Source: Parcubacteria group bacterium GW2011_GWC1_45_14 (GTDB lineage Bacteria > Patescibacteriota > Minisyncoccia > Moranbacterales > GWC2-37-73). From it: DNA of 39,723 bases. Positions 5,499 to 32,326 of the stretch are shown one piece after another (positions within the stretch are counted from its first letter, which is position 1; the number at the start of each line of letters is the position of its first letter). Below the pieces are notes generated by a model that saw nothing but the letters and a program-made list of their open reading frames with translations, had not been told where the DNA came from and did no database searches. The translations under genes and the position numbers were made by a program. The stretch is taken from positions 1 to 39,723 of the forward strand of contig LCKI01000008.1 in assembly GCA_001001345.1 (NCBI GenBank), read 5' to 3'.

Positions 5499-5572
5499 AG
5501 CGGGGTGGAGCAGTCCGGCAGCTCGCGTGGCTCATAACCACGAGGTCACAGGTTCGAATCCTGTCCCCGCAA
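5499..5572 (+). tRNA. Initiator tRNA-fMet(CAU)
   Basis: A full cloverleaf of the same length as E. coli fMet without CCA. Initiator marks are an unpaired 1:72 (A and A), the A11:U24 pair, GG-CTCATAA-CC in the anticodon arm with anticodon CAT, and T-arm ACAGG/CCTGT. The 29:41 pair is U-A, so only two of the three classical G-C pairs are present. The gene-encoded 3' end is A73 then CA, not CCA. First of three tRNAs from the promoter at 5356. Confidence 0.93.
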
Positions 5573-5576
5573 CAAG

Positions 5577-5709
5577 TTGTGCTTTTCCGACCCTGTTTTA
5601 TTCGAAATGGGAAAGGGGTCGGGAAAACGGGAGTTTTCCCGCGATGGAAGCATTGAAACCGCAAGGTTTCAAGAAGCGAAGCGCGTGAGATTCCTGTCCC
5701 CGCAACAAG
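5577..5709 (+). repeat. tRNA-fMet trailer element ending in a copy of the tRNA 3' end
   Basis: About 130 bp follow the gene and end at 5689-5709 with a 20/21 match to the last 21 nt of the fMet region (5556-5576). The body contains hairpins CGGGAAAAC/GTTTTCCCG and TTGAAACC/GGTTTCAA. This body is clearly homologous to the one after the next tRNA (5816-5938), although the terminal copies match their own tRNA. No open reading frame. Confidence 0.85.
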
Positions 5710-5739
5710 CACGGTTTAAAGGTGAAGCGCAGCTTCGAT

Positions 5740-5813
5740 GCCAGGGTAGCTCAGTTGGTTAGAGCACAGGACTCATAAGCCTGGGGTCGTGAGTTCAAAT
5801 CTCACCCCTGGTA
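5740..5813 (+). tRNA. tRNA with CAU anticodon (elongator Met or Ile2)
   Basis: Cloverleaf with GCTCAGTTGGTTAGAGC D-arm, anticodon loop CTCATAA and T-arm GTGAG-TTCAAAT-CTCAC. The acceptor stem closes with a G1-U72 wobble and the anticodon stem has a 31:39 A-G mismatch. The anticodon is CAT; it is not the initiator (C11-G24). Whether it is elongator Met or lysidine-modified Ile2 cannot be settled by eye. The encoded end is A73-CA. Confidence 0.9.
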
Positions 5814-5938
5814 CAGGATTGGGAAGAGATTTGAACCAGGAAAGGGGTCGGGAAAACCTGGGTTTTCCCGGGGTGGAAGTATTGAAACCGAAAGGTTTCA
5901 AGGAGCATAAGCGACGTGAATATCTCACCCCTGGTACA
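5814..5938 (+). repeat. tRNA-Met trailer element ending in a copy of the tRNA 3' end
   Basis: The last 17 nt (5922-5938) repeat the 3' end of the preceding tRNA (5799-5815) exactly. The body is homologous to the fMet trailer: AAAGGGGTCGGGAAAAC, the hairpin arm GTTTTCCCG, TGGAAG, ATTGAAACCG, AAGGTTTCAA, then a GTGA just before the copy. Spacing of copy to gene is 123 bp. Confidence 0.85.
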
Positions 5939-6070
5939 TAGAAAATTAAAAATTCAAATCTCAAAATTCAAAATTATCGTATCGCTTCGCGATGAACTTT
6001 TTCAGGATAATTGTGAACGAAGTGAACACCTAAATTTTGCATTTTGATTTTTGCATTTTGATTTATTTAC
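5939..6070. other. AT-rich word-repeat spacer
   Basis: No gene. It contains short repeated words: AAATTCAAATCTCAAAATTC near 5947 and a 14-bp repeat GCATTTTGATTTTT near 6038-6064. It resembles the 7-bp tandem words found elsewhere in this window. Confidence 0.6.
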
Positions 6071-30611: not shown

Positions 30612-30689
30612 TTCTATTCCTGACGAGAGCGAAGCAATTCACTCTCTCTTGGAAACATTCACTTGTTCATGTGTCCTTGGCAGGAATCG
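30612..30689 (-). repeat. tRNA-Arg 3' end plus trailer, distal copy
   Basis: A 78-bp direct repeat of 30787-30866 with about four mismatches and one indel. It includes the last 19 nt of tRNA-Arg plus CA and the trailer hairpin GAGAGTGAATTGCTTCGCTCTC. The offset is 176 bp. Confidence 0.9.
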
Positions 30690-30786
30690 GTCACGAGTAA
30701 ATTTCCTGACGTAAATTTCTCTCGACCCCGCCTCGCGGCGTTCGCCTTGCCCGCCAAAGCGGACAAACTCACGCACCGCTCCGGCT
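30690..30786 (-). repeat. Filler between the two tRNA-Arg 3' ends
   Basis: About 97 bp, GC-rich and palindromic (GGCGGGCAAGGCGAACGCC region), with GCGGGGTCGAGAGAAATTTAC, which resembles GCGCGGGGCGAGAAGTTTAC in the tRNA-Asp trailer. No open frame. Confidence 0.6.
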
Positions 30787-30847
30787 TTCGATTCCTGACG
30801 AGAGTGAAGCAGTTCACTCTCTCCTGGAAACATTCACTTTGTTCATG
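30787..30847 (-). repeat. tRNA-Arg trailer, proximal copy
   Basis: Trailer of tRNA-Arg with the hairpin GAGAGTGAACTGCTTCACTCTC. Just after the hairpin it carries CAGGAATCGAA, a perfect 11-nt complement of the T-arm segment TTCGATTCCTG of the tRNA itself, so a rival fold is possible. The distal copy has one mismatch there. Confidence 0.7.
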
Positions 30848-31675: not shown

Positions 31676-31710
31676 CTTTTTGCGGAGAGGGCGAGATTTA
31701 CCCCTCCGGG
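31676..31710 (-). repeat. Copy of the tRNA-Ser(GCU) 3' end
   Basis: Positions 31681-31698 repeat the tRNA 3' end and its CA exactly (18 bp; genuine at 31832-31849), offset 151 bp. On the minus strand it follows TGCCCCGGAGGGGTAA, related to the tRNA-Asp trailer. It is followed by its own terminator. Confidence 0.85.
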
Positions 31711-31830: not shown

Positions 31831-31833
31831 TTG

Positions 31834-31920
31834 CGGAGAGGGCGAGATTCGAACTCGCGAGGGCGGTTAAACCCTGCCTCGTTAGCAGTGAGGTGCTTTC
31901 GGCCACTCAGCCACCTCTCC
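31834..31920 (-). tRNA. tRNA-Ser(GCU)
   Basis: Class II tRNA with long variable arm. Acceptor GGAGAGG/CCTCTCC, anticodon loop CTGCTAA (anticodon GCT), T-arm GCGAG-TTCGAAT-CTCGC, discriminator G73, then CA. Second of two serine tRNAs on the minus strand. Confidence 0.94.
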
Positions 31921-32034
31921 GTATTTATTTGCTTCGCAAATGTAAAAAACTGTGGGCGAGAGGCCGCCAGGGTTCCCTTTTGGAACCCGTCAAATGCTCA
32001 TTTGCTCGCATTTGACCCACTCAGCCACCTCTCC
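31921..32034 (-). repeat. tRNA-Ser(GCU) leader element beginning with a copy of its 5' end
   Basis: Positions 32017-32034 repeat the first 18 nt of tRNA-Ser(GCU) exactly, 114 bp upstream of the real 5' end. After the copy come hairpins TCAAATGC/GCATTTGA and GGGTTCC/GGAACCC, then ACTG-T-run-ACATTTGCGAAGCAAATAAATA. The body is homologous to that before tRNA-Ser(UGA). Confidence 0.9.
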
Positions 32035-32071
32035 AATATATTAAATTTTTCAACCGTTTCAATCATGAGTG

Positions 32072-32158
32072 CGGAGGCGGTGGGATTCGAACTCACGGTA
32101 CCCTTTCGGGCACGACAGTTTTCAAGACTGTTGCCTTCAACCACTCGGCCACACCTCC
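32072..32158 (-). tRNA. tRNA-Ser(UGA)
   Basis: Class II tRNA. Acceptor GGAGGTG/CGCCTCC, anticodon arm ACAGT-CTTGAAA-ACTGT (anticodon TGA), long variable arm CGTGCCCGAAAGGGTACCG, T-arm GTGAG/CCCAC with one A-C mismatch, G73, then CA. Confidence 0.93.
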
Positions 32159-32271
32159 ATATTTATTTTCTTCGAAAATGTTAAAAACTGAAAGACCTCG
32201 GGCTCCAGGGTTTCTTTTGAAACCCGTCAAATGCTTCCTGTTTCACATTTGACCCACTCGGCCACACCTCC
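32159..32271 (-). repeat. tRNA-Ser(UGA) leader element beginning with a copy of its 5' end
   Basis: Positions 32254-32271 repeat the first 18 nt of tRNA-Ser(UGA) exactly, at a 113-bp offset. The body aligns along its full length with the Ser(GCU) leader: GGGTCAAATG, GCATTTGACGGGTT, AAACCCTGG, CAGTTTTTAACATTT and AAATAAATA. Confidence 0.9.
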
Positions 32272-32297: not shown

Positions 32298-32326
32298 ATG
32301 ATATCAGCAATAAGCCTCCTTGTAAA
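32298..32326 (-). promoter_or_regulatory. Promoter of the two tRNA-Ser genes
   Basis: Minus strand: -35 TTTACA (32321-32326), 17-bp spacer, -10 TATCAT (32298-32303). It lies just upstream of the Ser(UGA) leader element. Confidence 0.55.

Follow-up and report, generated by a model that had tools for sequence, protein, structure and literature searches.

Putative structured RNA elements that carry a copy of, and a segment antisense to, the 5' end of the tRNA gene they precede in Moranbacteria and relatives

In Caldiarchaeum subterraneum, the tRNA-Thr gene is disrupted: a 5' fragment lies upstream of the full tRNA, an arrangement that has been ascribed to mobile-element integration (PMC3293823). 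Integrative elements that depend on a tyrosine recombinase are similarly bounded on both sides by a direct repeat of a tRNA end and restore a functional tRNA. T-box riboswitches are structured leader RNAs with segments complementary to tRNA, while group I and group II introns are RNA elements within stable RNA genes that have a segment pairing just 5' of the insertion point. Inserts with homing endonucleases are known from the rRNA genes of CPR bacteria (PMC11270868), and these are included in the comparison with group I and group II introns. Finally, REP and MITE palindromic repeats are short, non-coding, hairpin-rich and present in multiple copies.

The element described here, R1, resembles each of these systems in the respects just given and differs from each in others. 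As in Caldiarchaeum, a 5' tRNA fragment lies upstream of a full tRNA, but the archaeal spacer is 1.8 kb long and encodes a recombinase (PMC3293823), whereas that of R1 is approximately 95 nt long, non-coding, has a conserved RNA fold and is found at many tRNAs in many genomes. Unlike the tyrosine-recombinase elements, R1 has neither an integrase nor an open reading frame, inserts in the 5' arm after GTGG and combines an RNA-strand fold with a gene-specific antisense segment. It precedes tRNA genes and not the aminoacyl-tRNA synthetase or amino-acid genes that follow a T-box, it matches no T-box in Rfam, and it bears both a copy of the tRNA 5' end and an antisense to it. In contrast to group I and group II introns, it has no intron core and no Rfam intron match, and the gene is rebuilt so that the downstream tRNA is complete and splicing is unneeded. 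In addition, and unlike REP or MITE repeats, R1 is nearly confined to tRNA 5' ends, where it has a fixed junction and an antisense matched to the host gene.

The window is the whole 39,723-nucleotide stretch of DNA that was analysed, and it belongs to a source genome (G000) of 888 kb in 32 contigs. It contains two complete tRNA-Ser genes on the minus strand, tRNA-Ser(UGA) at 32071..32158 and tRNA-Ser(GCU) at 31833..31920, each called by ARAGORN and Rfam and each the sole copy found. The first-pass annotation had reported that both are preceded by a leader that opens with the tRNA's own 5' end. This is borne out: for the GCU tRNA, an 18/18 copy of nt 1–18 starts at 32034, 114 nt upstream of the gene, and for the UGA tRNA such a copy starts at 32271, 113 nt upstream. 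By simple arithmetic, one exact 18-mer within 200 nt is expected by chance at about 3e-9, and control comparisons (5' end against downstream sequence, 3' end against upstream sequence) mostly gave 9–12 matches. The two leader bodies, which had been described as alignable, do share GTCAAATG..CATTTGAC, GGGTT..AACCC and AAATAAATA, with 85% identity in the hairpin part. The earlier finding was nevertheless incomplete, as the same element also precedes tRNA-Cys and, as two tandem units, tRNA-Ser(CGA) in the source genome.

Each unit has the same order of parts: nt 1 to k of the tRNA as an outer copy (k is 10 or 18, with a ..GTGG end), hairpins HP1 and HP2, an NGGN linker, the antisense segment P1', a run of five or six T, a third hairpin (HP3), an A/T-rich end and then the complete tRNA. 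In the UGA unit, on the minus strand throughout, the outer copy GGAGGTGTGGCCGAGTGG lies at 32254..32271 and is followed by two covarying helices, HP1 (GTCAAATG..CATTTGAC) at 32226..32253 and HP2 (GGGTTTC AAAA GAAACCC) at 32208..32225. The linker and P1' (TGGAGCCCGAGGTCTTTCAG) span 32188..32207, the five-T run 32183..32187, and HP3 (CATTTTC GAA GAAAAT) with the A/T-rich end, which is defined by alignment only, 32159..32182. The GCU unit, on the same strand, comprises the outer copy GGAGAGGTGGCTGAGTGG at 32017..32034, the covarying helices HP1 at 31989..32016 and HP2 (GGGTTCC AAAAG GGAACCC) at 31970..31988, the linker and P1' (TGGCGGCCTCTCGCCCACAG) at 31950..31969, a T6 run at 31944..31949, and HP3 (ATTTGC GAA GCAAAT) with its A/T-rich end, again by alignment only, at 31921..31943.

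The point at which the body enters the gene is well defined. Nearly always, the body starts right after ..GTGG, with G at positions -4, -2 and -1 in 73, 78 and 77 of 82 units, respectively. The body follows nt 18 in most Ser and Cys genes and nt 10 in Leu and some Ser genes. Extending from nt 1 to the insertion point, the outer copy has a length of approximately 10 or 18 nt. Its identity to its own tRNA over 55 loci, tandem units included, is 97%, compared with 45% in the 12 nt that precede nt 1. As the copy ends at nt 1 whether it is 10 or 18 nt long, the repeat tracks the start of the gene and not a fixed length. This boundary is compatible either with consistent placement of the unit at nt 1 or with the survival of only those insertions that leave a complete tRNA. 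The earlier suggestion of an insertion that rebuilt the tRNA 5' end it entered is thus supported by the GTGG junction, by a copy reaching exactly to nt 1 and by the empty orthologues in close relatives that are described below.

Evidence for the fold comes from several alignments. Seventeen units from the source genome and its relatives align well, and RNAalifold predicts HP1 and HP2 as neighbouring hairpins in which 9 of 16 pairs show compensatory changes; since this alignment was built without a covariance model, it is independent evidence. Among 50 units at the level of the order, in an alignment that was fitted to covariance model R1, two-sided changes are found at 14 of 16 pairs and 97.6% of cells are paired, values that were reached by 0 of 500 shuffles. 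The 33 class-level matches show covariation at 15 of 16 pairs. Such compensatory changes indicate that the fold is under selection, and a leader that serves the host would show them likewise. Read on the tRNA strand, G-U wobbles outnumber A-C mismatches by 44:3 and 17:8 in two counts, and the fold is therefore most likely formed in RNA of the tRNA sense. In Rfam searches, no non-tRNA match was reported at gathering score in the window or at loci L041, L068, L205, L247 and L097, and at E<=1 neither a T-box nor any other known RNA was matched at L181, L187 and L196. No description of the element was found in the open-access literature searched, a body of text without preprints and with few subscription papers.

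A specific feature that the first-pass annotation missed is that the element carries an antisense segment matching the 5' end of its own tRNA. HP2 is followed by a linker with a near-invariant GG and then by P1'; the latter complements tRNA nt ~6–18 (2–9 in the Leu type) and commonly pairs with a tandem G-A step, for example CACGACGGCAC with GTGCCGGAGTG at L250. Across the whole set, no permutation of the tails (0/5000 and 0/10000) equals the pairing of P1' with its own copy; the strong result is this set-wide permutation only, as individual z-scores against shuffled tails are weak. Consistent with gene specificity, the pairing energy of Leu copies is -12.7 kcal/mol for their own tails versus -8.1 for Ser/Cys tails. 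Within the window, pairing with the outer copy is strong for the GCU unit (-19.5 kcal/mol) and weak for the UGA unit (-8.5); P1' also pairs poorly with the outer copy at L026 and in the Ser(GGA) units of two genera. For a minority of units (L187, L196, L088 and relatives), the partner is instead a segment just downstream. Following P1', a run of at least 5 T is present in 76 of 82 units, and beyond this is the third hairpin, often GAGGC..GCCGAG (31 of 82 by a strict pattern). A terminator-pattern scan of the window units matched only the GCU unit, where it found a weak terminator of 5 bp.

Promoter-like sites (at least 10/12) lie 5' of the outer copy at 7 of 53 loci and 0 lie inside the element, so the body is probably transcribed as a pre-tRNA 5' leader. 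In the window, on the minus strand, TTTACA-17-TATCAT at 32298..32326 is located 5' of the UGA outer copy, with the same motif at the same place in G001, and a promoter-pattern scan placed TTGAAA-16-TATATT at 32035..32062, directly 5' of the GCU outer copy. The first-pass annotation had further suggested that the extra 5' strand could compete with the real one for the 3' acceptor strand. The predicted ensembles do put the outer strand on the tRNA 3' acceptor at 49 of 53 loci, but this is not specific to the element: when the body was shuffled and both copies were kept, acceptor pairing was 0.90 versus 0.93 for the native sequence. As shuffled bodies fold alike, the preference stems from having two copies under the energy model. 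Acceptor-strand competition as a designed function was consequently set aside, because this control removes the specific evidence for it.

The distribution of R1 is wide. It was followed in genome scans with the covariance model, whose E-values are rough; the evidence is computational throughout and the genomes are drafts and metagenome assemblies. For the order (Moranbacteria and relatives), R1 is present in 28 of 131 genomes. A class sample of 335 genomes has it in 28, with more than a dozen to about 20 families outside the order, and a phylum sample of 380 genomes has it in 11, of which 8 do not belong to the class. Among named records, the HP1/HP2 pattern is found mainly in Candidatus Moranbacteria, together with one Sungbacteria and one Parcubacteria-group genome. 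Nearly all units are directly 5' of tRNA genes, namely Ser (4 isoacceptors), Cys and Leu (5 isoacceptors), with single Gln, Ala and Glu cases; a few are in a broken outer tRNA or distant from any called tRNA. The first-pass annotation had proposed a comparative search for this leader before other tRNA genes, and such a search finds the element at dozens of further loci. A phage origin was also considered and rejected, as one strict HP1/HP2 pattern was found in none of the viral contigs searched.

Closely related genomes differ in which tRNA genes are occupied. Ser(GCU) is occupied in 5 of 18 genomes of the family. It is occupied in the source genome and empty in its sister genome G001, which is itself occupied at Ser(UGA); similarly, among three congeneric genomes whose tRNA nt 1–18 are identical, G007 and G014 have the element at Ser(GCU) and G010 lacks it. 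It had been considered that the two Ser loci might be one duplicated unit, and against this, G001 is occupied only at Ser(UGA) and G005 has a clear copy only at Ser(GCU). Tandem units are found at Ser(CGA) of the source genome and in G001, G007 and G230. In G222, units precede tRNA-Ala and tRNA-Glu, with hairpins that are 94% identical and P1' segments that differ. Empty sites, tandems and shared bodies are the traces expected of a mobile or mobilisable element, which R1 probably is, although they do not prove movement, and the patchy presence could also reflect ancestral presence and repeated loss via recombination between the direct repeats.

Candidate partner proteins were examined as well. 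Reverse transcriptase shows no association with the element, its genes occurring in 10 of 19 genomes with it and 10 of 19 without it, and GIY-YIG proteins are not discriminating either (19/19 with, 17/19 without). No unit contains an open reading frame or an integrase, and at approximately 95 nt there is no room for the latter. The source genome has two genes of the phage-integrase family, neither of which is within the window.

Copies of tRNA ends are not limited to this family. In the source genome, the 5' end is copied upstream of approximately 10 tRNAs and the 3' end downstream of approximately 14; the bodies are of several types, among which the Ser/Cys type is one clear family. Downstream of tRNA-Ser(GCU) itself, after a terminator-like tandem repeat, there is a 17/19 copy of its 3' end (31682..31700, minus strand), a separate 3' phenomenon. 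A second element, captured by model R2 (AAAGGGGTCGGGAAAAC..GTTTTCCCG..GGAAGTATTGAAACC..GGTTTCAAGGAGCGAAGCGAC), follows tRNA-fMet and tRNA-Met at 5499-5720 and 5740-5940 of the window (plus strand) and is accompanied by a repeat of the tRNA 3' end, from the T loop on; its scaffold is preceded by an antisense T-loop piece (..TCGAAC or ..TTTGAAC). R2 is present in 23 of 57 genomes of the order. It also occurs without a tRNA, at L141 (G000:C1:99023), L118, L120, L130, L135, L151 and L156, where the scaffold is surrounded, in an unchanged order, by a CCCACAATGGGC-like hairpin, its antisense and a partial copy; the 3' type is thus not confined to tRNAs. Also in the window, tRNA-Arg(GCG) is followed (30671-30846, minus strand) by a repeat of its 3' end (a 19/19 copy) together with approximately 60 nt of 3' flank, which contains a hairpin and an antisense T-arm piece; the repeat lies ~158 nt further downstream. 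A palindromic element with inverted ends CCACGTAAAATCATGAGC..GCTCATGATCACGTGG, or shorter ones, starts exactly at the 3' end of tRNA-Phe, Ile, Arg(UCU), Ala(GGC) and Tyr (loci L032, L035, L037, L040 and L041).

Other tRNA genes are interrupted or nested. At the Ser(GGA) loci L088 and L099, a complete tRNA-Ser lies inside the apparent anticodon loop of an outer tRNA-Ser, so that the tRNAs are nested; here, the outer tRNA has an R1 body in its 5' part and its 3' part beyond the inner gene (GGAGGGG/CCCCTCC at L088). At L105, the inner tRNA-Ser is itself split past the anticodon stem, where a hairpin and a GIY-YIG-like reading frame intervene. Of the eight GIY-YIG genes of the source genome, four adjoin tRNAs (Glu UUC, Tyr, Trp and Met-Gly; loci L038, L041, L032 and L044), and in the Glu case a 5' tRNA fragment with an anticodon-loop hairpin precedes the frame. 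A LAGLIDADG frame lies 3' of tRNA-Leu(CAA) in the same genome. Between tRNA-Tyr and tRNA-Trp at L041 is a tRNA-Thr-like gene, GCCGTTGTAGCTC..CAACGGCTC, whose anticodon loop is split by approximately 250 bp; by eye this insert is group I intron-like, and Rfam reports nothing for it at gathering score.

The explanation that we favour is that the leaders are an undescribed structured RNA element with a body of approximately 95 nt, inserted site-specifically in the 5' arm of tRNA genes that are rebuilt in the process; as a whole, with the mobile insert included, it is moderately probable. The body would enter after GTGG, and everything in the gene from nt 1 up to that point would be duplicated, such that the downstream copy is a complete, usable tRNA and the displaced 5' end stays upstream together with the old promoter. 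The leader would then be removed by an RNase P cut at nt 1 of the inner copy. P1' is the sole part that is remade for each target and it pairs with precisely the stretch that borders the insertion point, for which reason a role in target recognition or as a third helix is proposed: most likely it pairs with the adjacent tRNA copy to close a three-helix fold, and this pairing would also be the best candidate for a guide-like choice of a new target. A stronger claim, that these are phylum-wide tiny mobile RNAs whose insertion after GTGG is guided by a retargetable antisense, with the gene rebuilt from nt 1 and no protein gene of their own, is speculative and in our view doubtful.

The main rival is a cis-regulatory leader that serves the host. 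Here, the outer copy and P1' would form a helix (P1) that, with the T run, sets the levels of certain tRNAs, either as a conditional intrinsic terminator or as a processing switch, with the tRNA copy being mimicked or sensed. The conserved RNA-strand fold, the gene-specific P1', the upstream promoter-like sites and the near confinement to tRNA 5' ends would all suit such a role, as would the position of the T run, a few bases past P1' in most units (76/82, at least five T); this stem, however, ends 2–6 nt short of the T run, and the HP3 beyond it is often conserved too. It is also harder to see as a switch something that is missing from the same tRNA in most close relatives, that occurs as two tandem units, an odd arrangement for a switch, that varies in position (nt 10 or 18) yet tracks GTGG, and that is found, as type (ii) copies, in broken outer tRNAs. 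We regard this reading as possible, if on the unlikely side. tRNA genes are classic attachment sites, and an exact direct repeat up to the tRNA end, an intact tRNA and the existence of empty sites would also be left behind if a tyrosine recombinase or other integrating element had used the tRNA 5' end for attachment and the body were its remnant. The Caldiarchaeum gene, in which a recombinase lies between the 5' tRNA-Thr fragment and the full gene, is a precedent (PMC3293823). Such elements leave the conserved, G-U-biased fold on the tRNA strand unexplained, as a DNA relic would not keep a strand-specific RNA fold over a phylum; with no unit that has an open reading frame or integrase, and with a P1' that tracks the tRNA sequence, an integration relic is improbable.

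Slippage could have produced a partial tandem duplication of the tRNA 5' end that REP-like hairpins invaded later, and both the tandem units and the other source-genome tRNAs that have 5' fragments with various palindromic hairpins in their loops are in keeping with this. Set against a single alignable body family whose order and junction are constant across genomes from many families, covariation across these families and the antisense P1', it is very improbable. Alternatively, the insert could be intron-like, with the tRNA made by joining the outer 5' end to nt 19 onward and the body plus the inner copy spliced out. Predicted folds that put the outer strand on the 3' acceptor, and type (ii) loci in which the outer tRNA resumes past the body, would agree with this, but the fold preference is generic by the body-shuffled control, the inner tRNA is complete and needs no splicing, and no Rfam intron is matched. 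No locus was found where the sole tRNA copy requires removal of the body: the seemingly interrupted tRNA at L084 was rejected as a functional intron because its outer 5' end mismatches the 3' acceptor, and the locus looks rearranged. An intron of this kind is scarcely credible.

The element adds a widespread structured RNA to one of the least-understood branches of bacteria, and it does so on essential, mostly single-copy tRNA genes. If the favoured insertion model is correct and the element is mobile, it would rank with the smallest known site-specific elements, and a guide mechanism could be tested directly through its remade antisense. Should it prove immobile, it would be a new type of tRNA leader that bears a copy of, and an antisense to, its own tRNA. 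Either way, the annotation and expression of tRNAs in Patescibacteria merit re-examination.
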